From positions 1 through 41,674 of IMG/VR virus record IMGVR_UViG_3300028388_001281: a stretch of 41,674 nucleotides of DNA; one strand, written 5' to 3'. A program made the position numbers and the translations under genes. The stretch is from a virus. This document shows, one piece after another, positions 3,474-39,898 of the stretch (positions within the stretch are counted from its first letter, which is position 1; each line of letters starts with the position of its first letter). The notes beneath the pieces were generated by a model. That model worked only from the letters and a program-made list of their open reading frames with translations, ran no database searches and was not told the DNA's origin.

Positions 3474-3718
3474 TCTTCGGCCTCCTCGACGGTCAGGATT
3501 ACCGGCGGATGCGAGTTTCCGAGGATCGACAGTTCGACCTCCGCGCCGCCCATGAGGGCGGCGATCTCGTCGGCCGTCGGCTTCCATCGGGATCGCATCA
3601 CCGGAACGCGGCCGACCACCTCAACTTCGATCACCTCGCGACGGATCATGAGGTTCCCGTATTCGTCCTGATCCTCTGCGAGGATATCGGTTGCGTTCTT
3701 GATCTTGGTCGGGTTCAT
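3470..3718 (-). CDS. Hypothetical protein in the replication operon
   Basis: An 82-residue acidic protein. The start at 3718 is chosen by its ATGA overlap with the polymerase stop; the longer open frame upstream lies inside the polymerase gene. It contains a strand-rich middle (REVIEVEVVGRVPVMRSRW), a helix PTADEIAALMGG and a Glu-rich end. I do not recognise a family. Tight coupling on both sides argues that it is a real gene expressed with the polymerase. Confidence 0.75.
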   Translation of the reverse strand: MNPTKIKNATDILAEDQDEYGNLMIRREVIEVEVVGRVPVMRSRWKPTADEIAALMGGAEVELSILGNSHPPVILTVEEAEE

Positions 3719-5679
3719 TTCCTGTACCTTTCTGTCTGGAAAGCATCGGTCGCGAGCGGGAAATCGTCGGTCAGCCATTCGGGCCGCGTGGTCATTTCCC
3801 GCCTGAATTCGTCGTAACGGCCGTCGTCGGCCTCGACGAGTTCATCGTGCACGGTCAAGACAAGCTCGTGCCCGAGTTCGTCGAGCCGCACCATGGCCGA
3901 GGCCATGATATCCCGGGCCGTAGACTGGACGATATGCCCGGTCAGCGCGCCGCCGTAGATCTTGACCCGGCCATAACCTGCGCCGCCCTTGAGACGGCCA
4001 AAGCACGACCACGAGATCCGGCGGTCTTCGACCTTTTTCTCAACCTCGTAATAGCGCAGGAGGCGGCCGCTCGGGAGCTTGATCCAGAAGCGATCCGCCC
4101 GGGTAAACTTGATCGAGATCTTGCCCTTGATTACGGCGAACTCGGTTCCGACGTTCTCGCTCGCATGCGCGAGGGCGCGATCGAGCCGTCGCCAGAACTT
4201 CACCACGGCGGGCGCGTTCTTGCGATATAGGCCGACAAGCTCGTCGCTTTCGTCGCGCTCGATCTGCACGTCGTATGTCGTATCGAGCATGTACTGGAAA
4301 CCGCCGCCGCCGAGCCCGTAGCCGCAACCTAGGACGGTTTGTTTGCCCATGAACCGCTCGGCGCTCGTGATCTCTTCGACCGGCTTGCCGTAGATCTTCG
4401 CGGCCATCATGCGGTAAGGATCGTCGCCCCGGGCGAACGCGCCGAGCAGATCCTCGTCTCCGACGATCCATGCGAGGAGCCGCGCCTCGATCTGCGAATA
4501 GTCGGCGACGTTGAGGTAGCGGCCGAGGTCGGCGATCAAGCCCCGGATCACGTTCGCGATCGTGTCGAGTTCCTGCCCGCCCCATGTGAACTCGAACAAG
4601 CCGTCGATCTCGATCGCCTCGAAAACGAGATCTTGCTTGGAACCCATGCCGCGCACGAGGTTCTGCGGCTGCACGCCCGCCCCGGCGAACCGCAGGGTTC
4701 GCTCGGCCGCCCCGTAGATAACGCCGTCATGGACGCGGCCATCTACCCTTGAGCGGGCCAGCATGGCCTTGATCTTGTCGACCGACGTTTTCGCGTATGT
4801 CTGCCGGGCCTCGGCGACGGCGCGACGGTCTTCGGGTAGCGTGGGATCCTTGAGGTAGTCGCGCAAGGGAGCCTTGGCGATGCTCGACAGACCCAGAAAC
4901 GCGGCCACGTCCTTGACCTGTGTCAAGGTGAAGCCGTGCCGGGTTTCGACCTCGGCCGACATGCGCTCGCGGGTACGGCACGTGATATCCCAGAGGCGTT
5001 CCGCGCTCGGCCGGTCGATCGGGAACCCGCGCTCGTTCATGCGGTAGGTCGCGGCGTAGACCTTCACCTCGAAAGGCGAGAGCGGCGGCATATAGCGCAT
5101 GGCCCGGCGCATTTCGTGCACGTCCCATCCGCAATAGGCATACATCAATTCGAAGTCGTCGGGCTTCTCGTCGGGTCGCCAGAACCGAACGCCGGGGTTT
5201 TTCTTCGACTTGTTGCGCGGCCGGGAAAGCTTGAGCATGCACGAGCGGCCGATCTTGTCCTTTTCGCCGCCGAAGAACTGAGCGAGATCGTCGAGCCCGC
5301 CGGGCAAACCGGCCGCCCGGGCTACGGCTGCGCTATCGACGATCCGCTCGATTTCGATATCGATCCCGATCTTCTCCCGCAAGATCTTCGGCTCGAATTC
5401 GGCGTTATGCACGCAGAGGAGCGTGCGCGGGTCGGACAGCAGCGAACAGGCGGTGTCGAGCGGATCCGAGAACGTCTCGTCCCAATGCTGGATTGGGTTG
5501 TCGTCGATCGCCCATCGCGCGCACATGATCTCGGTCGAGGGGTGGCTCGCGTATGTATGGGCGTCGATATCCCGCAGGTTCAACTCCGACCGGGTTTCGA
5601 GATCGAGGAATAGCACGCGATGGAACGTGCGCCCCGTGGCGGCCTCTGCGGCGGCGATATGATCGGAGAACGGGTTCAT
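3715..5679 (-). CDS. Family A DNA polymerase with 3'-5' exonuclease
   Basis: A 654-residue replicative polymerase. The proofreading domain is at the N terminus: exo I DLE (Asp26, Glu28), exo II HNAEFEPK (91-98), exo III YCGWD (Tyr182, Asp186). The polymerase domain has motif A DYSQIEARL (from Asp393), motif B from Arg442 through Lys446 to Tyr454, and motif C VHDELVEAD (610-618). There is no 5'-3' exonuclease domain, as usual for phage pol A enzymes. The start ATG at 5679 follows a short intercistronic region with a strong GC hairpin and only a weak ribosome site, so translation may be limited relative to the SSB upstream. Confidence 0.97.
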   Translation of the reverse strand: MNPFSDHIAAAEAATGRTFHRVLFLDLETRSELNLRDIDAHTYASHPSTEIMCARWAIDDNPIQHWDETFSDPLDTACSLLSDPRTLLCVHNAEFEPKILREKIGIDIEIERIVDSAAVARAAGLPGGLDDLAQFFGGEKDKIGRSCMLKLSRPRNKSKKNPGVRFWRPDEKPDDFELMYAYCGWDVHEMRRAMRYMPPLSPFEVKVYAATYRMNERGFPIDRPSAERLWDITCRTRERMSAEVETRHGFTLTQVKDVAAFLGLSSIAKAPLRDYLKDPTLPEDRRAVAEARQTYAKTSVDKIKAMLARSRVDGRVHDGVIYGAAERTLRFAGAGVQPQNLVRGMGSKQDLVFEAIEIDGLFEFTWGGQELDTIANVIRGLIADLGRYLNVADYSQIEARLLAWIVGDEDLLGAFARGDDPYRMMAAKIYGKPVEEITSAERFMGKQTVLGCGYGLGGGGFQYMLDTTYDVQIERDESDELVGLYRKNAPAVVKFWRRLDRALAHASENVGTEFAVIKGKISIKFTRADRFWIKLPSGRLLRYYEVEKKVEDRRISWSCFGRLKGGAGYGRVKIYGGALTGHIVQSTARDIMASAMVRLDELGHELVLTVHDELVEADDGRYDEFRREMTTRPEWLTDDFPLATDAFQTERYRK

Positions 5680-5695
5680 GCCGGGTTCTGAGCAA

Positions 5696-5725
5696 CCGGC
5701 CCGGGGGTGAGGAGCCCCGGGCCGG
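5696..5725 (-). other. Intercistronic GC hairpin before the polymerase gene
   Basis: Arms CCGGCCCGGGG (5696-5706) and CCCCGGGCCGG (5715-5725) pair perfectly over 11 bp around an 8-base loop. No T tract follows on the leftward transcript, so it is not a standard terminator. It could attenuate, or stabilise the 3' end of the upstream SSB message. Confidence 0.6.
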
Positions 5726-6570: not shown

Positions 6571-7703
6571 TCGAGGGCCTCGAACTCGCCGTCGAGCGGG
6601 TTCTTCGCCTCGCTGGCGCGCACGAGCTTGATCTCGCCCGGCGGCCGCACGACGAGGGCCTCGACAACGTCCTTGCCGAGGGCGCGCTTGAGGGCCGTTT
6701 GCGTGACCGGTTTGCGCGGCGCGTACTCGTCGAGATCCAGACCGGCGGCCTCGATCTCGGCGACGACCTCTTCCTCGTCGCGCCACCGGGCCCGACCGTT
6801 GCCTTGTTCCCGGGCCCAACCGGGCACCTTCCGCCCGGCGGCCATGCGTTGCAGCGCGGCCGCCTGCATAGCCTTGATCGTCGCGATCATGTGGTCGGCC
6901 TTGTCCAGCCACGCGGCGAGATCCTCGTCGCTCAGGGCGTCGGGATCCTCGGCCTTGTCGAGATCTTCGAACTCGTCGAGCACCTGCGCCTTGCAGGATC
7001 CGCTCGCGGGGCAGAAACGGCATTGATCCTCGCCCGGGATGAACGGCGCATCGTCGGACAGGGCAAGCATGATCGCCGCCCGGGCCTCTTCCTTGAACGC
7101 ATGGATCTCGGGCCATGAAACTGAGGCGCGCTTAACGCCACCTGCGCGAGGCTGCACGATCACGATCTCGAACTCGTCGAAGTCGTGCCCGGGGAAGCGC
7201 TCGGCGAGAACCTCAAGCGCTCCGATCAGGTAACACATGCCCTGCGCGTTGAGCTTGCGATCGCCTGTCTCGGGGTCAGTCGTGACGGCCTCAACCGGAA
7301 CGAACCCGAACTTGAAGTCGACAACCGAAACGGCAGATCCCCGGATCCCGATCACGTCCGACGTACCCCACATGATCTCGGGATCGTTAAGCCCGAGGGC
7401 CTGCCCGACGGGCACCTTGATCTCGGTCATGATACGATCGAACTCCTCGTCGGCGACGAAGTCGAAACACTCCTCGACGTGCCCGAACCGGTCGACCGTG
7501 ACCTCGACGCCGTTGTCTGCGACGAAGCCGGGTTCCACGAGTTCGCCGTCGAGCATGCGCTCGACGGCTTCGTGACAGGCGGTGCCTTCCTCGGCCGCCT
7601 TGTTCGTCTCGTTCGGGAACATGGCGGCGAACCTCAGGGACGCCGGGCATGCCTTCACGCGCGAGAATGACGACGGGCCGATCTTGGCGTGATGCTCGGG
7701 CAT
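6567..7703 (-). CDS. DUF2800 family Cas4/RecB-like nuclease
   Basis: A 378-residue protein. The RecB-type nuclease motifs are visible: His44, GTSD with Asp116, VVDFK with Asp129 and Lys131, and QxxxY (Gln154, Tyr158). Cys19 together with Cys228, Cys231 and Cys237 forms the pattern of a 4Fe-4S cluster seen in Cas4/AddB-like enzymes. Phage DUF2800 proteins are presumed exonucleases partnering the DUF2815 SSB in recombination-dependent replication. The ATG shares bases with the stop of the preceding gene (TAATG), and the 3' end overlaps the small membrane protein start. Confidence 0.9.
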   Translation of the reverse strand: MPEHHAKIGPSSFSRVKACPASLRFAAMFPNETNKAAEEGTACHEAVERMLDGELVEPGFVADNGVEVTVDRFGHVEECFDFVADEEFDRIMTEIKVPVGQALGLNDPEIMWGTSDVIGIRGSAVSVVDFKFGFVPVEAVTTDPETGDRKLNAQGMCYLIGALEVLAERFPGHDFDEFEIVIVQPRAGGVKRASVSWPEIHAFKEEARAAIMLALSDDAPFIPGEDQCRFCPASGSCKAQVLDEFEDLDKAEDPDALSDEDLAAWLDKADHMIATIKAMQAAALQRMAAGRKVPGWAREQGNGRARWRDEEEVVAEIEAAGLDLDEYAPRKPVTQTALKRALGKDVVEALVVRPPGEIKLVRASEAKNPLDGEFEALD

Positions 7704-10914: not shown

Positions 10915-13290
10915 ATGAGTAAACCCAATATCTCGGTTCCGCAAGCCCTGCCTAGTGTTTTCGAGGATGCACGGCACGAGAAGAATTGGCTCATATTCGC
11001 GATCGGCAAGGCCGATGAAAACGGGAAAAGACCCAAGAGGCCGGTTGCGCGCGACCGGCCTTATATCTGGGTCAACCGGGACAAGGCGGCGAGCTTCACC
11101 TACGACAAGGCGATCTCGCGCATGCGCGAGTTCCGCGAATGGGACGGCGGGCTCGACGGGATCAACCGGCGGGCCGAGGAACGTCGCGAGAAGGCGATCG
11201 AGGAGGGCAGGAAGCCCGGGCCGTCGATCGAGGTCGAGGGGTATTGCGTGGGGTACTTCCCGCGCGAGGGGAGCGCGCTCGTGGCGCTCGACTTCGACAA
11301 CGTGGTCGCCGACGGCGTGATCCTCGATTTCGAGCTTGCCCCGATGGTCGAGGCGAGCCCGGCCTATGTCGAGATCTCGTCGAGCGGATCCGGCCTGCGC
11401 GTGTTCATGCCGCGCGGTTGGGGCGACGACACGCTGCACGCCGGGGAAAAGAACGACGTGGGGTTGTTCGTGTCTGGCAAGGGCGCGGCCTGCGCGTTGA
11501 CCTTCGACACGATCCGCGACGGGGGCGAGCGCGATTGGGATCTCCTCGATCTCGTGATCGAGCGGCACGGGGCCGCCGGAACCAAAGGGGAGGACCGCAA
11601 GCGCAGCGACGGGGTCGTCGAGGAGGTACTCGAACACGGCCGCGTCGAGGTCGACCGGTTCGTCGGCGAGATCGTGCCCTTGGTCGTGAACGATGATCGG
11701 TTCTCAGAGGTCGGCGAATGGATCGGCATGATCCGCGCGGCGAAAGAGTATTTCGAGGTCGTGGATCCTGACCGGCTCGACGAGGTCGAGGACGCCATGC
11801 GCGCTTGGTCTGAAAGCTGGACAGGGGGCGAGCACGACGAGGAGAAGTTCGCCGAGGTCTGGGCGCGCGAAAGCAAGGGCGGCACCGGGCTAGGGTCGTG
11901 GATCCATTACGCACGCGAGGCCGGGTTCGAGTGGGATCCCGTGCCCGAGGTAGACGAGAGCGAGCCGATCGCGGAGATCGTCACGACCCGCAAGGAAGCC
12001 CTAGAACGGTTCGTATTGGTCGGCGGCCAGTTCTATGACCGGTTGCAGCGCGAGCTACTCGATCGCGGCAACGCCGGGCTTGTGAACACGATCGCCCGGG
12101 CCTTCACGGAGAAGGGCAAGAGCGGGCCGACGCCCATGGGGGCCGACAAGGTCGTGACCTACATGCGGCACAACGCAAAGGCCTACCGGTCGCTCGAATT
12201 CCGCCCCGGGGAGCCCGAGATCGTCGGGAACGTGCTCAACCTGTGGGAGCCATACGGCGAGTATCCGGCCGGGGATATCGGGCCAATGCGCGAGCATGCC
12301 CAGAAGCTATTCGGCGTCGAGGATACGGAGATCCTTTTCGACTGGCTCGCGTTCAACCTGCAATTTCCCGGGCGCAAGGCGAATTGGTCGCCGGTCCTGA
12401 TCGGGCCGCCCCGGTGCGGCAAGGATACGATCATCACGCCCGTGGTGCGGGCGATCGGGCGGCACGCGGTGCCGAACATGGGCCTAGACGCCTTGGAAAA
12501 GGAGCACAACGGATGGATCGAGCGCGCGCTCCTCTTGGTGATGCAGGAGAACGTGACCGGCCGGATGCACAAGGCGAACGCCATGGAAAAGCTCAAGACC
12601 ATGATCGCCGCGCCGCCCGAGACCCTGCCCATGCGCAAGATGCAACGCGACACGGTGCAGGTTCCGAACGTGCTCAACCTCATATTCCTGACGAACCACA
12701 TGGACGCCCTCTATATCGAGCGCGAGAACAAGGATCGTTTCTTCCCCATGGTCACGACGGTGAAGCCCGAGCCGGAGCATTTCGAACGGCTCTATGCGTG
12801 GCTCAAGGCGGGCGGATCCGAGCAGTTCGTCGGGCACCTGATGCGGCGGCGTATTACCCGGGTCAGGGAAGGTGGGGTCGCGCCGCCGAGCAAGCACATT
12901 GACCAGATCGTCGCGGAGAGCCTGCCAGAGGGCGGCCTCGACGTGATGGACTACGTGAGCGACAAGCGCTGGATCTCGACGAAGCACCTCAAGACGGCGA
13001 TCGGATCCGAGGGGTTCGGATTGTCGCCGGGGTGGCGCATGAGCGACAAGGCGCTTTCCGCGACCCTGAGGGCGGCCGGGTTCGTCAAGCCGTGGGATCG
13101 GGTTTCCGTAAGGGATGGATCGACGGTCATTCATCACCGGGTCTGGGTTCGCGCCGATGCTGTTCCCCTTTCGTATGATCTTGTCGCCGAAGCTTTACGC
13201 CAAGGAGGCGAAAAACTGAGCCAAGCTCAATCGTTACCCGTTGAAGGGGTAATAGAGGCTCAAAGGGGTAATGAGAAAAAGATAGAGTGA
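10915..13290 (+). CDS. Primase-helicase (AEP-like primase plus DUF5906/D5-type helicase)
   Basis: A 791-residue fusion. The N-terminal part shows archaeo-eukaryotic primase-like signatures: VALDFDN with Asp126 and Asp128 as likely metal ligands, then SSSGSGLRVF (155-164) and GLFVSGKG (183-190). The C-terminal half is an SF3/DUF5906 ATPase with a P-loop IGPPRCGKDT near residues 496-505 and a later NLIFLTNHMD sensor-like strand. Such proteins prime and unwind at phage origins, acting as a hexamer. A GAGG site lies before the ATG. The 3' end contains three of the eight GGGTAA motifs of the candidate origin. Confidence 0.9.
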   Translation: MSKPNISVPQALPSVFEDARHEKNWLIFAIGKADENGKRPKRPVARDRPYIWVNRDKAASFTYDKAISRMREFREWDGGLDGINRRAEERREKAIEEGRKPGPSIEVEGYCVGYFPREGSALVALDFDNVVADGVILDFELAPMVEASPAYVEISSSGSGLRVFMPRGWGDDTLHAGEKNDVGLFVSGKGAACALTFDTIRDGGERDWDLLDLVIERHGAAGTKGEDRKRSDGVVEEVLEHGRVEVDRFVGEIVPLVVNDDRFSEVGEWIGMIRAAKEYFEVVDPDRLDEVEDAMRAWSESWTGGEHDEEKFAEVWARESKGGTGLGSWIHYAREAGFEWDPVPEVDESEPIAEIVTTRKEALERFVLVGGQFYDRLQRELLDRGNAGLVNTIARAFTEKGKSGPTPMGADKVVTYMRHNAKAYRSLEFRPGEPEIVGNVLNLWEPYGEYPAGDIGPMREHAQKLFGVEDTEILFDWLAFNLQFPGRKANWSPVLIGPPRCGKDTIITPVVRAIGRHAVPNMGLDALEKEHNGWIERALLLVMQENVTGRMHKANAMEKLKTMIAAPPETLPMRKMQRDTVQVPNVLNLIFLTNHMDALYIERENKDRFFPMVTTVKPEPEHFERLYAWLKAGGSEQFVGHLMRRRITRVREGGVAPPSKHIDQIVAESLPEGGLDVMDYVSDKRWISTKHLKTAIGSEGFGLSPGWRMSDKALSATLRAAGFVKPWDRVSVRDGSTVIHHRVWVRADAVPLSYDLVAEALRQGGEKLSQAQSLPVEGVIEAQRGNEKKIE

Positions 13291-13441
13291 TCAACGGTTT
13301 GTCTCCTGTTACCCTATGTTACCCCTTAAATGACAAATTATAGTACAAGAGGGAAAAAGCGTATGAACAGGCTAAAATGCCCCAGAATGTCTCCCCATGG
13401 GATAACTTCTGAAAAAGGGGTAACGGGTAACACAGGGGTAA
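13233..13441. repeat. Cluster of eight GGGTAA motifs; candidate replication origin or regulator site
   Basis: GGGTAA or its complement occurs at 13233 (-), 13245 (+), 13264 (+), 13308 (-), 13318 (-), 13416 (+), 13424 (+) and 13434 (+). Five copies extend to GGGGTAA. The middle (13326-13380) is unusually AT-rich for this genome. The cluster spans the end of the primase-helicase gene and the following non-coding gap, where iteron origins are often placed. The same hexamer also appears in the divergent promoter repeat at 39.8 kb. Confidence 0.5.
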
Positions 13442-13480
13442 AACCCTCGCCCCAGATGGATCGCTAGAAGGAAAATGACC

Positions 13481-13696
13481 ATGAACGAAAGATCGAAACT
13501 GATAGCCCAGATCGCAGGGCAAATCTTCGCGGCAGACCGGGGCGCGGTCATCGCGTTAAACGGCGCAGGGATCACTACCCCGGCCGATTGGTCCGACGAA
13601 GATGATGCGATCGACCATAGCCTCAATCTCGCGGTGCGGATCGTCGATCTCGCCGAGGATCATGAAGACCGGCAGTTGCCGTTGCCAGATTGTTGA
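13481..13696 (+). CDS. Small hypothetical protein
   Basis: A 71-residue acidic, helical protein (MNERSKLIAQIAGQIFAAD...). An AGAAGGA ribosome site at 13467-13473 fits the ATG at 13481 better than the in-frame ATG at 13475. It follows the candidate origin and precedes the small terminase. No family recognised. Confidence 0.65.
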   Translation: MNERSKLIAQIAGQIFAADRGAVIALNGAGITTPADWSDEDDAIDHSLNLAVRIVDLAEDHEDRQLPLPDC

Positions 13697-13717: not shown

Positions 13718-14110
13718 ATGCCTAAGCCGCAGACATATCTGGCGCGAGCCGACGAAATAGATCACCTCGTCCTAGAGTGCGGGGCCCATGGGTACTCCTA
13801 CGCCCAGATCGCGGCGTGCATCGGGATCAGCCGGGACCGGCTCAACCTGTGGGCCAAGGAGCACCCGCGCCTCGCCGAGGTGCTGGATCGCGCGCAGACG
13901 CTATCTCAGGCATGGTGGGAGGGCCGCGCCATGGACGGCACGGCGAACCAGCGTATAGGCGCGACCGTCTGGCACAAGAGCATGGCCGCCCGGTTCCCGC
14001 ACGACTACGCCGACCGGCAGGAGGTCGGCACGATCGGGGAAAGCGGCCGCGTGGCGAAGGTCGAGTGGAAGATCGTTGATCCGGCCGGGGAGCCGCAGAG
14101 TGGAGGATAG
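13718..14110 (+). CDS. Putative terminase small subunit
   Basis: A 130-residue protein immediately upstream of, and overlapping, the terminase large subunit. A helix-turn-helix is visible at about residues 25-50 (GYSYAQIAACIGISRDRLNLWA), as in small terminases that recognise packaging sites. A helix-rich middle follows (DRAQTLSQAWWEGRAM), and an extended acidic C terminus may bind TerL. A TTG nine bases upstream is an alternative start; no clear ribosome site was seen for either. Assignment rests on the HTH and position. Confidence 0.75.
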   Translation: MPKPQTYLARADEIDHLVLECGAHGYSYAQIAACIGISRDRLNLWAKEHPRLAEVLDRAQTLSQAWWEGRAMDGTANQRIGATVWHKSMAARFPHDYADRQEVGTIGESGRVAKVEWKIVDPAGEPQSGG

Positions 14111-15398
14111 CGGGTTCGATCCTTTCGGCGATCTCGTAGAGACAAGCGATCTTGTCCCTACGGATCCGCCGGGCATTGGACACAACGGCGGCCCGTCGAT
14201 CGAGATCGAGGTCGCCCGGGTCGTCGCTCCTGCGCTCGCTCCTGCCCGGTACAAAGCCCTGTATGGCGGCCGTGGTGGGACCAAGTCTTACTTTGCGGCC
14301 GACTATACCGTCGCGAAGGCGATGCAGGGCGTGAAATGCCTGTGCGTTCGCGAGGTGCAGATCTCGCTCGACCAATCGTCGAAAGCCCTGATCGAGGAGC
14401 GGATCGACGCGCACGGCCTGCGCGGCGAGTTCCGGATCCTGCGCAGCCATATCGAGCATCCGGCCAGCGGCGGCCGGATCGAGTTCAAGGGCATGCAACA
14501 GTTCAACGCCGCGAACATCAAGTCGCTGCAAGGCTACGGTCTGGCGTGGTGGGAGGAGGCGCACACGGCGTCGCAGTACGCGCTCGATCTCCTGATACCG
14601 ACGATCCGGAAGGAAGGATCCGAGCTAATATTCACATGGAACCCGGAGTTTCCCGACGACCCGGTCGACGCCATGTTCCGGGGGCCGAACGCTATCCGCG
14701 ACGACGTGATCCTTATCGAATGCTCTTCGGAAACGAACCCTTGGCTACCGGCCGTGCTCAAGGCCGAGCGCGACGAGCTATTCCGCCGGGATCCGGAAAA
14801 GGCCGCTTGGGTCTGGGGCGGCGACTATCGCACGATCTCGGACGCGAACGTCCTGAAAGGCCTGTATCGAGCGGAGCGGTTCGAGCCAAAGCCGCATTGG
14901 GACGGGCCTTATCAGGGCCTCGACTTCGGCTTCGCGAACGATCCGACGGCGGCGATCCGGCTCTACACGTTCGGCAAGTCGCTATACATCCACTACGCCG
15001 TCGGGACCGTGCAGCTTGACCTCGACGACACCGAACAATTCATCCTCGAACGTGTGCCCGAATGGGATCGATACGCCGTTCGCTGCGACAACGCGCGGCC
15101 CGAGAGTATTTCGTATCTCAACAAACACGGCTCGGGTCGTTATAGTGCCGCGCCAAAATGGCCGGGGTCGGTCGAGGACGGCATTGCGTGGTATCGGGCC
15201 TTTAACGAGATCGTCGTACACCCGGATCACGCCGCGCCTTTCTTGAAGGAATGCAAGCGCTACTCGTACAAGGTGAACAAGGCGGGCGACGTGCTACCGC
15301 AGATCGAGGACAAGGATAACCATTGGATCGACGCCGGGCGTTATGCCGCGTCGCCCCTGATCAAGGCCACCGGCCTTCCGAACATAAGGAGCCTCTGA
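14100..15398 (+). CDS. terL: Terminase large subunit (Terminase_3 type)
   Basis: A 432-residue protein from GTG at 14100, which overlaps the small-subunit gene; a TTG at 14076 in frame would add eight residues. The ATPase has a modified Walker A GGRGGTKS and Walker B GLAWWEEA, followed by IFTWNPEFP. The C-terminal RNase H-like nuclease shows GLDFGFANDPTA, VRCDNARPESI and EDKDNHWIDAGRYA, with three acidic metal sites. This is the PBSX/SPP1-like class that packages DNA into proheads. Class alone does not settle pac versus cos packaging, but pac-type headful filling would suit a circularly permuted assembly. Confidence 0.95.
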   Translation: MEDSGFDPFGDLVETSDLVPTDPPGIGHNGGPSIEIEVARVVAPALAPARYKALYGGRGGTKSYFAADYTVAKAMQGVKCLCVREVQISLDQSSKALIEERIDAHGLRGEFRILRSHIEHPASGGRIEFKGMQQFNAANIKSLQGYGLAWWEEAHTASQYALDLLIPTIRKEGSELIFTWNPEFPDDPVDAMFRGPNAIRDDVILIECSSETNPWLPAVLKAERDELFRRDPEKAAWVWGGDYRTISDANVLKGLYRAERFEPKPHWDGPYQGLDFGFANDPTAAIRLYTFGKSLYIHYAVGTVQLDLDDTEQFILERVPEWDRYAVRCDNARPESISYLNKHGSGRYSAAPKWPGSVEDGIAWYRAFNEIVVHPDHAAPFLKECKRYSYKVNKAGDVLPQIEDKDNHWIDAGRYAASPLIKATGLPNIRSL

Positions 15399-24098: not shown

Positions 24099-24509
24099 AT
24101 GGCTGGATTTAATGGGCGCGAACTAACGGTCGATTGGGACAGCACAACCCTTGTCGGCATTCGCACGAGGGGTTTGTCGATCTCGGCCGAACCGGTCGAC
24201 GTGACGACCGACGACGACACCGGCGAGCGTGTGCTCCTGCCGGATCCCGGCGTGCGCAGCGCCGAGATCAGCGTCGCCGGGATCACCTCGGACGAGGTCT
24301 TGATCGCCGAGATCCTTTCGGGCATCGGATCCCGTACCCTGACCGGTGCTACGGTCAATCTCCCGAGCGATCTCGCGACACCGGGAACGATCGCGTTCGA
24401 CGCTTTTGTCTCGGCGTTCGAGATCAACGGCGAGCATGATGGAGCGGTCGAGTTTACCGCGACCCTCATGTCGGCGGGCCCGATCACCTACACGGCTTCG
24501 GCCGTGTAA
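24099..24509 (+). CDS. Major tail tube protein
   Basis: A 136-residue protein with the tail-tube fold pattern of TP901-1/GTA type proteins: GRELTVDWDSTTLVGIRTRG, SAEPVDVTTDDDTGERVLLPD, SAEISVAGIT, and a terminal GAVEFTATLMSAGPITYT. Six such subunits form each ring of a siphovirus tail. It sits between terminator and chaperone genes. Confidence 0.9.
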   Translation: MAGFNGRELTVDWDSTTLVGIRTRGLSISAEPVDVTTDDDTGERVLLPDPGVRSAEISVAGITSDEVLIAEILSGIGSRTLTGATVNLPSDLATPGTIAFDAFVSAFEINGEHDGAVEFTATLMSAGPITYTASAV

Positions 24510-26990: not shown

Positions 26991-28240
26991 CTATTGCGAC
27001 CGAAGCCGGGTATACATGGGCGCAGGGAAAGCACGCTCGCCTTCTGCACGTCGGCAACAAGTTCGAGATCAAGACGATAACGCCGTCGGCCGAGGCCGTC
27101 ACCGGCAACGGCCAGCTAGTCGACAACGGCTTGACGGTAGATCGGTGGGTTCCGTTCGAGAACCAAGCCGTAGACGAAACGGCGTTCGACGCGGCGGCAT
27201 GGACGGCCACCAACGTGACGATCCAGAGCGACGAGAAAACGATCGTAGAGACGACCGACACCGGCGAGCACGATCTGTCGCAGGCGTTCACCTTCACGGC
27301 GGCCGAATGGATCGTCGCGTTCAAGGTCGAGCGGCGAACCGTGCCCGAAATACAGGTGCGCGCAAACGACGGAACCTCGACGTTCTCGTGTTTCTTCGAC
27401 TTGCGGGACAAGTCGGTCGGCACGGCAGCCGGTGGGGCCGTAGGGCAGATCATCGAACAAGAAGACGGATCGCTCTTGTGCTCGATCAGGTTTACGGCGG
27501 CGGCGGGAACCGGCGTGATCGAGCTTCTACTGTCCAACGGGTCGGAGACGGTCAGTTACGCGGGGTCGACGGATAATACGATCCTCGTGCGGCGCGCATA
27601 CACGCACCTCTCCTCTGCGACCCTGCGGCTCGACACGTTCCTCGCTCAGGGCGGGACATGTTTCGCCATTGGCGCGCATACGCTCGGTATGGCCGGGGCC
27701 CGGGTCACGTTCGAGCATGACAGCAACGGGGATGATACATGGACCTCGATCGGATCCGTCTCGCCGGATAACGACAGCGCGATCATGTTCTTTTTCTCCG
27801 AGATCACCTCGGACAGGTGGCGCGTGACGGTCGACAGGGGCGTCTTGCCCGAGATCGGGATCCTGTGGGTCGGAGATCCGCTAACGTTCGAGCGGCCGTT
27901 CTATGCGGGCTTTACCCCTGCCCGCATGAACCGCAGCACGGAGATCATCGCGAACATGAGCCGATCCGGCGAGCTTCTCGGCCGGTCGATCAAGCGAACG
28001 ATCTTGCTTGAGGATTACCAATGGATGAACCTGACCTATTCATGGGTCAGAGCTAACCTCGACGGCAAGAACGGCGTAATCCAGAGCCTAGAGGACAAGC
28101 CCGGTTTCATCGCATGGCGGCCCGAGTTGACCGACGACGCCTCTTACATCATGAGAGCGCAGCCGAGCGCGCCCATGTCCATGGGTTCGCGCGATCTGTG
28201 GTCATTCTCTATGAGCGTCGAGGTATATTCCTATGAGTGA
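26987..28240 (+). CDS. Distal tail (Dit-like) protein with a beta-sandwich insertion
   Basis: A 417-residue protein whose ATG overlaps the tape-measure stop. The N terminus (YTWAQGKHARLLHVGNKFE) and C terminus (NRSTEIIANMSRSGELLGRS, then WMNLTYSWVRANLDG) match the two halves of alphaproteobacterial-phage distal tail proteins. Between them, about residues 60-215, lies a beta-rich module (TNVTIQSDEKTIVETTDTG; WIVAFKVERR) that resembles head-spike-fibre or carbohydrate-binding sandwiches. I infer a tail-tip ring with an external binding module. Confidence 0.7.
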   Translation: MTIATEAGYTWAQGKHARLLHVGNKFEIKTITPSAEAVTGNGQLVDNGLTVDRWVPFENQAVDETAFDAAAWTATNVTIQSDEKTIVETTDTGEHDLSQAFTFTAAEWIVAFKVERRTVPEIQVRANDGTSTFSCFFDLRDKSVGTAAGGAVGQIIEQEDGSLLCSIRFTAAAGTGVIELLLSNGSETVSYAGSTDNTILVRRAYTHLSSATLRLDTFLAQGGTCFAIGAHTLGMAGARVTFEHDSNGDDTWTSIGSVSPDNDSAIMFFFSEITSDRWRVTVDRGVLPEIGILWVGDPLTFERPFYAGFTPARMNRSTEIIANMSRSGELLGRSIKRTILLEDYQWMNLTYSWVRANLDGKNGVIQSLEDKPGFIAWRPELTDDASYIMRAQPSAPMSMGSRDLWSFSMSVEVYSYE

Positions 28241-31200
28241 CGAGAACACGATCGGCCGCGAGCCGGTTCAAATTCTCGAAATCATCACGCCCAAGTGTGC
28301 ACTCACGCATGGGACCGCACCTTGCGAGGCGACGCAGACCGGATCTGGCAAGTGTTTCAACACGTCGAACACGTGCAACGATTTCGACAACTTCCAGTCG
28401 CAGCCGTTGTCGAACTTTACGCCGGATCTGGATCTTTCCAGCGGCGACACGATCGCGAGCGGAGATATCGATCGCACGGCCGACATAATGGTGGTCGCGG
28501 AGGTGCGGTTCCCGGCGAGCCCGAGCGGCACGATCTGGGAACAGGGCGGCTCGGCTGACGAAGGTGCTTATCTCGGGATAACCGGAACCGATCTCGTGTT
28601 TCGCGCAGGTGACGGCACCGTAGCCTCTGGGACGAATACGGGTAAAATTACCTCGCCAATCTCGAACTTTGCCGGGCGTTCGATCATCCTGATCGGGGAA
28701 ATCGACCTTACTGACGGCGCGGTGCGCCTGTGGGAGTTCGACACGATAGAGCTTGTGCTTACCAAGATCGGAGAGGACGCATTCACGCCACCACCTCCTC
28801 CCGGTGGCGGCAGCTTGGTTTCTGTCACCGGTGCGACAAGTGACACCGAGGTCGATATAGGCGGCACGATCTACCGGATCGTTGAGTTTGGCACGTCTGG
28901 CGGGAACATCTCGGTCGGCGGCGGGGAGACGCTCACCGGGGTTGAGTATACCCTTGTCGGCGGCGGCGGTGGCGCGGGCGGCGTGACGGGAACAACCGTC
29001 GCAGGCGGCGGCGGCGGCGGTGGCGAGGTCGTTTCGAATGTGGGCGGCACCGCGATAAGCATAAGCGGCACGACGAACGCAATCACGGTTGGCGCAGGCG
29101 GCGCGGGCGGCGGGCCGACAGACGCAACCGGGGCAGACGGCGGATCATCAACTTTTGCGGGCGTAAGCGCAGGCGGCGGCGGTGGCGGGGCGCTAGAAGA
29201 TAGCAACGCGAACACGGCAAGCAACGGCACCGGAGGCGGCGGCGGCGGTGGTAACGAGAGCGGCGGCATAGGAGGCACGTCAACCGGCACGGCGGGCGAT
29301 GGTGCGAACGGCGACGAAAGCGGTAACTCGGGCGGCGGCGGTGGCGGCGCAGGTGCGAATGCAAGTGGCCCGAACGGCGGCGACGGCGTGTCAAATTCGA
29401 TCACAGGCACCGCCACGTTCTACGGCGGCGGCGGTGGATCTGACGACGCAGATCTTGCGGCGGGCGGCACCGGTGGTCAAGGTGGCGGTGCAGACGGCAT
29501 AGACGATGCGACACCGGGCAGCACCGGCAACGCAGGAACCGACGGATTGGGCGGTGGCGGCGGATCGGGCGCGCCAGCGTCCAACGGCACCTTTACCGGA
29601 GGCGACGGCGGCGACGGCATCGCGATCATTCGCTGGCCCGTGGCTAACGAACCAGAGGAAGAGGTAGCAGGCGGCATCTGGGCCGGAGAGGACGGCGGTG
29701 CGATCGGCGAAGACGGCGGGTCGAATATCGTCACGGGCGAAGACGGTGGCACGTTCAACGGAACGGTTGTAGAGGTCAGGTTCTACGAAGGCCGGGGCGA
29801 AGACGACCTTAACACGAACCCGGATGGCTACCGGCAGCGCTACTTTTTCGACGACGGCCGTCGGGCAAAGCCGGGGGATCCCGGGCTCTACATTCTTCCG
29901 CTCCTCGGTGGGGCGCAGCCGGTCGGATCTCGGATCAACGTTACCGGGGCCGATCAGAGATACGAGCCGCTCGGCCGTCGGGCGTATCTGGGGGCCGAAT
30001 TCAAGGACGCGCCGCACTCCGATTTCCCCTACGATCCGTATCTTTCCGACCGGAACTACAACCCGCTCGATCGCTCGACGTTCTGGGCGAAATGGCTGAT
30101 CCGCAACAAGTTCGGCAAGACCCGGGCAGTCGTGCGCCTATACCACGGGTACGACGGCCAAAACCTCGCCGACATGCAACAGCAACTATACGTTCTGGAC
30201 GCGATCGAATGGTCCCGGGAAAGCGTATCGATGCGGTGCCGGGATTACCTGTCCTTGACAGAGTTTCGCCGCACACAGGTTCCCGCTCCTTCCCCGGGCA
30301 AGCTTGAGGCCGATATCCTCGCGGCGGATACGAGCTTCGACCTGAGCGGCGACCAGACCGGCAATTATCCGGCCTCGGGCACCTTGCGGATCGATGAAGA
30401 GCTTATGACCTACACGGGCCCGGTAACGTATGACGCCGGGTCTGATACGACGACGATCGCGAACGTGACCCGGGGCACGGATGGATCTACGGCGGCGGAT
30501 CATGACGCCGACGAGGGCGTACAGTTGTGCCGCAGGTACACAAACGCACGGATCGACACGGTTCTCGAAGACCTGATCGTAAACGACGCGGCCGTGCCCG
30601 CTCAGATCGTGGATCTCGCCAAGTTCACAAGCGAACGCGACGAATATCTCGATGCTTACGAACTCACGACCTTGATCTCAGAGCCGACCGGGGTCGATCA
30701 GTTGATCGGGGAAATTGCCGAGCAATGTTCTTTCTATATCTGGTGGAACGAACGGCGGCAGATCGTGGATATGCAGGCGATCCGGCCGCTCGACGGGGTA
30801 GATGCGGCATTTACTCAGGAACGTGATATAATCTCGGACACTTTTGAAATCGTTGAGCGTCCCAAGGAAAGGCTCACGACGATTTCTTTCTACTATAACC
30901 CGCGAGATCTCGCCGGGGATCTGTCGAAGCCGGTGAATTACAAAAACCAGCTTGTCGTTTCCAATTCGACGGTGCAGGCAATCGATCGCTATGGCCGGTT
31001 GCCGCAGACCCGGGAAGTGTTCTCGCGGTGGCTCACGACAGAGGCACAGGTAAACCAGACGGCGAGCCGATACTCCCTGCGCTATGCAGACGTGCCCTTC
31101 TACGTGTCGTTTATGGTCGACGCCAAGGATCGGCAGATCTGGGTTGGCGACTTCGTGTCGATCTCGCACGATTTTATCGTCGACGCCCGGGGCAATCGAG

Positions 31201-31418
31201 CCCTGCGTCGGTGGCTAGTGGTCGAGGCCGAGGAGATCGAACCCGGGCACGCTCAGAGGCTTGTATGTGTAGACGTTACTCTCGACGGCCAGATCTACCG
31301 GATCACGGAGAACGGGATCGGGAGCTACACGGCCGCATTGTTCGCCGAGGGGAATGCGTTCATAACGGATAACAATGGCCTGAACCCGGATGGCACGACC
31401 GGGGCGACCATAGCGTAA
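28233..31418 (+). CDS. Central tail hub with inserted LamG-like and polyglycine domains
   Basis: A 1061-residue protein. The N terminus (EPVQILEIITPKCALTHG, with a Cys cluster) and residues about 500-1061 match the tail-hub family of alphaproteobacterial phages (YDPYLSDRNYNPLDRSTF; IEWSRESVSMRCRDY; TYTGPV, VTRGTDG). Two modules interrupt it. Residues about 70-190 look like a LamG/concanavalin fold (IMVVAEVRF; GTIWEQGG; ILIGEIDLTDG). Residues about 229-470 are extremely Gly-rich, starting YTLVGGGGGAGG and ending GDGIAIIRWPV, resembling polyglycine-II sandwich receptor-binding domains. I infer host-binding domains grafted on the hub. Typical homologues lack these. Confidence 0.85.
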   Translation: MSDENTIGREPVQILEIITPKCALTHGTAPCEATQTGSGKCFNTSNTCNDFDNFQSQPLSNFTPDLDLSSGDTIASGDIDRTADIMVVAEVRFPASPSGTIWEQGGSADEGAYLGITGTDLVFRAGDGTVASGTNTGKITSPISNFAGRSIILIGEIDLTDGAVRLWEFDTIELVLTKIGEDAFTPPPPPGGGSLVSVTGATSDTEVDIGGTIYRIVEFGTSGGNISVGGGETLTGVEYTLVGGGGGAGGVTGTTVAGGGGGGGEVVSNVGGTAISISGTTNAITVGAGGAGGGPTDATGADGGSSTFAGVSAGGGGGGALEDSNANTASNGTGGGGGGGNESGGIGGTSTGTAGDGANGDESGNSGGGGGGAGANASGPNGGDGVSNSITGTATFYGGGGGSDDADLAAGGTGGQGGGADGIDDATPGSTGNAGTDGLGGGGGSGAPASNGTFTGGDGGDGIAIIRWPVANEPEEEVAGGIWAGEDGGAIGEDGGSNIVTGEDGGTFNGTVVEVRFYEGRGEDDLNTNPDGYRQRYFFDDGRRAKPGDPGLYILPLLGGAQPVGSRINVTGADQRYEPLGRRAYLGAEFKDAPHSDFPYDPYLSDRNYNPLDRSTFWAKWLIRNKFGKTRAVVRLYHGYDGQNLADMQQQLYVLDAIEWSRESVSMRCRDYLSLTEFRRTQVPAPSPGKLEADILAADTSFDLSGDQTGNYPASGTLRIDEELMTYTGPVTYDAGSDTTTIANVTRGTDGSTAADHDADEGVQLCRRYTNARIDTVLEDLIVNDAAVPAQIVDLAKFTSERDEYLDAYELTTLISEPTGVDQLIGEIAEQCSFYIWWNERRQIVDMQAIRPLDGVDAAFTQERDIISDTFEIVERPKERLTTISFYYNPRDLAGDLSKPVNYKNQLVVSNSTVQAIDRYGRLPQTREVFSRWLTTEAQVNQTASRYSLRYADVPFYVSFMVDAKDRQIWVGDFVSISHDFIVDARGNRALRRWLVVEAEEIEPGHAQRLVCVDVTLDGQIYRITENGIGSYTAALFAEGNAFITDNNGLNPDGTTGATIA

Positions 31419-39813: not shown

Positions 39814-39898
39814 TCGCATATACTCTTACCCGGGTCAACAGGAAAAATCAGCATGCAATACCCTGTAGGGGTATTGACCCGGGTAAGAGTATATGCGA
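39814..39898. promoter_or_regulatory. Divergent promoter/operator: 25-bp perfect inverted repeat
   Basis: The 25 bases at 39814-39838 are the exact reverse complement of 39874-39898, with a 35-base spacer. Each arm, read outward, carries TTGACC, CCGGGTAAGAG and TATATGCGA, and points to a gene 45-50 bases away (39764 left, 39943 right). Each arm contains the palindrome ACCCGGGT. The spacer holds a second dyad, AATACCC and GGGTATT (39857-39875). So both promoters and operators are mirrored. The GGGTAA in each arm also occurs in the candidate origin. The regulator may be the RHH or wHTH protein (inference). Confidence 0.75.

Follow-up and report, generated by a model that had tools for sequence, protein, structure and literature searches.

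Why does a short repeat crowd the end of a phage primase-helicase gene? The locus belongs to a 41.7-kb virus record (41,674 bases, analysed whole and called the window below) that carries its own small and large terminase subunits, TerS and TerL. Eight copies of GGGTAA lie within 208 bp (13234-13441), five rightward and three leftward; our recount of their positions agrees with the initial annotation, which had read them as a candidate iteron origin, of the kind that initiator genes often carry at or near their end. Comparative data strongly support this proposal, and from them we infer a role in replication.

The repeat cluster and the gene it follows

As described before, the cluster spans the end of the primase-helicase gene: the first three sites precede its stop codon (the gene ends at 13290) and the other five follow it. 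The sites fall into three groups. Group A (13234-13271), within the coding end, is of mixed strands, with a leftward site at 13234 and rightward sites at 13247 and 13266. Group B (13309-13324) starts 43 bp past the last A site and consists of two leftward sites, at 13309 and 13319. Group C (13418-13441) starts 99 bp past the last B site, with rightward sites at 13418, 13425 and 13436. The hexamer is part of a longer motif, which in full reads about A(G/C)GGGTAA(C/T).

The AT-rich spacer between groups B and C (13325-13417) has about 39% GC, and a candidate unwinding element at 13269-13358 is the least stable and most AT-rich stretch of about 90 bp in the whole window. The interval had been called GC-rich; it is in fact AT-rich, with 45.6% GC at 13200-13460 versus 63.1% for the window. 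The record's second most AT-rich stretch of low stability, at 30807-30898, is situated within a long ORF (28233-31418). Outside genes, the repeats occupy a 185-bp non-coding gap, with replication genes on one side and packaging genes on the other. Neither promoter-like nor terminator-like sites overlap them, neither RNA families nor tRNAs were found in the window, and a DNA-level search of the region against phages returned no match.

GGGTAA was expected to be rare here by chance, and it is: 5000 dinucleotide shuffles of the 209-bp interval yielded 0.49 copies on average and 4 at most. The full window holds 17 copies versus 6.7 expected, a count never attained by shuffling the whole window; the one kind of hexamer that is more densely clustered is GCC-type codon repeats. 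The genome-wide count revealed no comparable second cluster of the hexamer in the window. In a composition-corrected scan of 250-bp segments, the cluster has the top repeat score of the whole window, 8.8, the runner-up reaching 5.9. This second strongest short repeat cluster consists of five copies of CGAGATC at 24176-24425.

Two further expectations fared less well. A GC-skew minimum had been anticipated at 13.3 kb; the cumulative minimum lies near 8 kb, at a gene-strand switch. Under the rule set in the initial annotation this would count as a refutation, but we take it as uninformative about the origin because skew follows gene orientation here. One protein had also been suggested to bind both the cluster and the arms of a repeat at 39.8 kb, where an inverted repeat of a sequence of about 25 bp (TTGACCCGGGTAAGAGTATATGCGA) surrounds a promoter-like region (39826-39886). 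The arms do contain GGGTAA, but the hexamer is all that the two places have in common. Scored against a matrix derived from the eight sites, the arms rank only 57th and 58th in the window, and the record of the relative L009 lacks their sequence; on these grounds we reject a shared binder.

The gene itself (10915-13290, + strand) encodes the proposed initiator, a primase-helicase of 791 residues that matches DUF5906 (Pfam PF19263; E=5.9e-13, 49.9 bits against a cut-off of 27.6) as well as phrog_1829 and phrog_1156 (DNA primase). A profile of 49 relatives finds the NrS-1 primase (6k9c/6k9e) at 1.7e-33 for the helicase half and 1.2e-19 for the primase half, 7ola at E=3.9e-21 and 7pds at 2e-6. 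We obtained an AlphaFold2 model with a pLDDT of 81.9. The archaeo-eukaryotic PrimPol domain (residues 9-223; 10939-11583) aligns with NrS-1 N300 (VIA-align Z 14.1), and the D5/SF3-type helicase region (residues about 355-650; 11977-12864) with the NrS-1 C-terminal region (Z 25.4) and the SaPI5 primase-helicase (Z 18.1), the silence of the VIA-align list on other families being no evidence against them. The protein is related to both NrS-1 PrimPol and the SaPI5 primase-helicase.

At the C-terminal side, residues 662-746 (12898-13152) have the secondary-structure order H-H-E-H-H-E-E with pLDDT mostly 75-88, and in the model they look like a winged helix. Searched alone, they gave no match below E 0.001, the weak matches including many winged-helix proteins. 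We propose this domain as the putative iteron reader. In protein searches, no counterpart of the window's primase-helicase was found in bacterial genomes, and none of the primase of the related phage PCA1 in viral contigs.

Past the repeats, on the same strand, come an ORF of 73 residues without family match (13475-13696), TerS (13718-14110; phrog_309, E=1.3e-12), which has a helix-turn-helix, and TerL (14076-15398; phrog_3717 and phrog_2). The two terminase genes served as control neighbours.

Recurrence and layout at primase gene ends

We examined 65 clusters of relatives (under 70% identity, with at least 300 bp of downstream sequence), each over a stretch from -150 to +450 around the primase stop codon. 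This stretch is in the top 5% of its own locus by repeat score in 40 of the 65 (binomial p 1.7e-35). Scores of at least 5 occur at 38/65 primase 3' ends; for the remaining large ORFs of these loci the figure is 5/220 ends (Fisher p 2.8e-24). In 25/65 relatives no significant cluster was found in the tested stretch; some of these have one a few hundred bp further on, others none. In Chi (L031) it is located at 5450-5700, a small gene further downstream, and in U5 (L032) and Haddon (L171) about 0.4 kb past the primase gene. The strict 3'-end test thus undercounts, because some clusters sit one small gene further downstream.

The repeated motif varies by phage: GGTTACA, AGGTCCGA, CCGCACA, GTGGCTA, CACGACC, CCATACAA, GGTTCGA and AAAGGCCA all occur, and many of the iterons contain GGTTA. 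VapE-type phages outside the set of 65 behave alike, among them Staphylococcus phage 47 (GATGCAAC) and APSE-1 (GTAACAAC); other VapE-type cases are Paenibacillus Pd_22F (GTTGAC) and Haddon (CTGTCCC). The highest repeat score of all is unrelated to an origin: it comes from long tandem repeats of a pentapeptide-like unit in an annotated RNA-binding protein of a Thiohalocapsa phage (L012:1384-2190).

That the repeats are a functionless product of chance or composition deserves virtually no credence. The motif is indeed short and some relatives lack a cluster, but the count is unreached in shuffles, the enrichment over control ORF ends is strong, and the repeats change sequence in concert among relatives; the comparative data refute this reading.

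Although the genes that follow differ greatly, the cluster stays linked to that of the primase. Repeats without a nearby terminase are found in Phobos, PCA1, Silvanus, Staphylococcus phage 47, Pd_22F and APSE-1, and the Phobos cluster, which is of this kind too, is flanked by convergent genes. This bears on whether the repeats could be operators for a transcription factor controlling the late genes from terS onwards, as their place between replication and packaging genes, partly in the non-coding gap, might suggest. We hold that to be very improbable, and reject it on the lack of a promoter-like site in the cluster and on the convergent-gene cases. The linkage to the primase gene despite such different neighbours speaks against operators too, and eight sites over 200 bp, with a group spacing that recurs in unrelated phages, fit a promoter poorly.

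A layout recurs: group A is followed after 43-47 bp by an inverted pair B, then come 85-120 AT-rich bp and a group C opposite to B. Taking B to be two sites inverted relative to A, at 35-60 bp past A and 70-135 bp before C, we find the layout in 18 of the 41 loci with a scored motif versus 7.3 expected, the automatic motif calls including some false sites; orientation-shuffle simulations never reached 18. With the window and L010 left out, adjacent gaps of 43-47 bp between opposite orientations number 20, versus 3-4 in neighbouring 5-bp bins, and spacings between sites of like orientation are quantised, at 7, 9 and 12 bp. The layout spacings are 44/8/107 in Psp6, 44/7/103 in PCA1 and 43/10/99 in the window, though the window, L009 and PCA1 are not independent evidence, since it was in these three that the layout was first noticed, ahead of the tests. 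L038, L039 and L040, another branch of the same primase-helicases, display a second layout, in which triplets of sites at 9-bp steps face each other across a spacer.

Primase type and terminase in close relatives

Five phages with one packaging module allow the contributions of primase and terminase to be separated. In L009, L010, L138 and L139, as in the window, a TerS gene lies downstream, its product 66-74% identical to the window TerS and with a similar helix-turn-helix. The primase of L009 is 72% identical to that of the window, and its repeats keep their positions while their sequence has shifted to GGGGTAC/GGGTATC/GGGTCAC. L138, found via its terminase, has a DUF5906-type primase and GGGGTNTC forms of the repeat. 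L010 is a chimera: residues 1-354 of its protein (L010:5038-7446) share 63% identity with the window protein, while the helicase half, unlike the window's, is a VapE-type domain (PF05272, 1.5e-65), and the downstream repeats read AGTGTCA. L139 is of the VapE type as in L010, with AGTGACA repeats. Across the five, GGGGTNTC-like repeats accompany the DUF5906 type and AGTGACA-like repeats the VapE type; judged from the sequences, the repeats are kept in relatives with concerted change.

Across both primase types of this group the spacing is nearly constant. The window, L009, L138 and L139 have the same step of 43 bp from the last A to the first B site; in L010 this step is about 47 bp if a degenerate AGTGACC site near 7487, picked by eye, is counted. 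From the last B to the first C site it is 99 bp in the window, 87 in L009, 92 in L138, 94 in L139 and 100 in L010. AGTGACACT is near-palindromic, which leaves some ambiguity in how the sites of L010 and L139 are oriented.

In these five phages the repeats track primase type, not terminase. TerS starts 0.3 kb downstream with its helix-turn-helix, in the same order in all four relatives, and the repeats might be a packaging site (cos/pac) that it binds, like the cosB R sites beside lambda Nu1. We regard this as very unlikely: the TerS proteins of these kin are 66-74% identical, yet the repeats differ completely and sort by primase type, and many relatives have repeats without a terminase near. 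We reject a cos/pac identity, since neither repeat sequence nor position follows TerS.

Given these TerS identities and the L010 chimera, the repeats follow the primase and, within it, probably its C-terminal half. The chimera lends indirect support to placing iteron specificity in that half of the primase-helicase. The N terminus, originally proposed as the reader, does not fit: L010 has the same N-terminal half with another helicase half and other repeats. A gel shift with the N terminus would accordingly probe the wrong end. Motif similarity correlates modestly with identity in the ATPase (rho 0.28) and the C-terminal domain (rho 0.30), with rho 0.07 for the PrimPol domain. This too is indirect support for a C-terminal reader, although statistically the C-terminal domain and the iteron sequence are weakly linked (partial Mantel p 0.027).

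The same data weigh on another reading, in which the repeats are single-stranded priming sites for the N-terminal PrimPol/helix-bundle part and not double-stranded binding sites. NrS-1 PrimPol, the closest solved relative, begins DNA synthesis at TTTGGTTA (PMC8718748), and GGTTA is found within many iterons of relatives. Still, L010 keeps the N-terminal half while its repeats and helicase half differ, motif similarity is uncorrelated with PrimPol identity, and groups that are paired and inverted at a fixed spacing are what one would expect of duplex binding. We consider this reading unlikely. Single-stranded priming and duplex binding at the repeats could nonetheless coexist, and by analogy with NrS-1 the PrimPol domain may possibly have an additional role in priming there.

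A proposed origin of the SaPI/PICI type

The repeats, their layout, their recurrence in unrelated phages, their linkage to the primase gene and the fold relationship of its product are what these comparisons establish. Very probably, the repeats are the replication origin of the phage, of the SaPI/PICI rep-ori type, and are read by the primase-helicase encoded just upstream. SaPI Rep uses its C-terminal domain to bind iterons that directly follow its own gene (PMC7581432). PICIs have an AT-rich region 3' of rep with an iteron set on either side, and the pri-ori replicates a plasmid; this origin organisation was stated to have no parallel in any other known bacterial replicon (PMC6092414).

The window resembles these systems (SaPI5, SaPIbov1 Rep, EcCICFT073 pri-ori) in having its proposed origin immediately 3' of the primase-helicase gene, with two iteron sets around an AT-rich region and a related primase-helicase fold: the repeats at 13234-13441 adjoin the stop at 13290, groups A+B and C flank 13325-13417, and the initiator is related to SaPI Rep (7ola E=3.9e-21, Z 18.1). 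It differs from them in its iteron sequence and in being a tailed phage of full size that encodes a family-A polymerase and a terminase of its own. We do not take it for a PICI, given its own TerS/TerL and 41.7 kb; it is a phage that has the replicon type alone in common with them.

Relatedness and layout lead us to expect that the window element works like PICI origins, and we infer binding, melting and use as an origin as follows. The primase-helicase would bind the iterons through its C-terminal winged-helix-like part, helicase rings would assemble on the A+B side and on the C side of the AT-rich stretch, and the protein would melt 13.27-13.42 kb and then load itself. Its N-terminal PrimPol domain would make the first primers, which the phage's own family-A polymerase (3715-5679) would extend. 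The layout could be used to test the placement of two helicase rings around a melting site.

Other systems match in part. SCCmec Cch2 likewise combines a D5-type helicase with short repeats (AAGTG) downstream of its gene, which its C-terminal domain binds; unlike the window, it has three iterons only and its primase is a separate polymerase plus MP protein, and the excerpts of PMC7581432 do not report a tripartite layout as in the window. The NrS-1 primase-polymerase is the closest solved structure for both halves (Z 25 and 14); unlike the window's iterons, the site known for it, TTTGGTTA, is a motif for priming on single-stranded DNA. The P4 alpha protein with ori/crr and lambda O with ori-lambda are also initiators with iterons; the lambda iterons lie inside the initiator gene, lambda O is known neither as a helicase nor as a primase, and the P4 ori is not known to lie directly 3' of alpha.

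This kind of origin is already known from satellites and SCC elements. A partial literature search found no description of the same organisation in full-size tailed phages, where earlier single-phage accounts may exist. A layout once described as special to small phage-parasite islands occurs in many tailed phages with other repeat sequences, and this breadth and the fixed spacing are its interesting part. We would put at about even chances a very widespread class of tailed-phage origins in which a double primase-helicase ring sets the fixed layout (A, ~44 bp, inverted pair B, ~100 AT-rich bp, C) and iterons are freely exchanged together with the helicase C-terminal half: a modular, reprogrammable initiator-origin pair common to phages and PICIs, probably from one common ancestor. 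Such pairs bear on the direction of replicon transfer, satellites from phages or the reverse, and offer natural initiator-iteron combinations for learning a DNA-recognition code. They also suggest a simple rule for finding origins in many uncharacterised phages, where the place to search is the stretch 3' of the DUF5906 or VapE gene.

A minor observation concerns the primase. Archaeo-eukaryotic primases usually carry a motif ending in His (sxH); at its place the PrimPol region (10915-11583) reads SSSGSGLR, and from these residues the primase may be altered or inactive.
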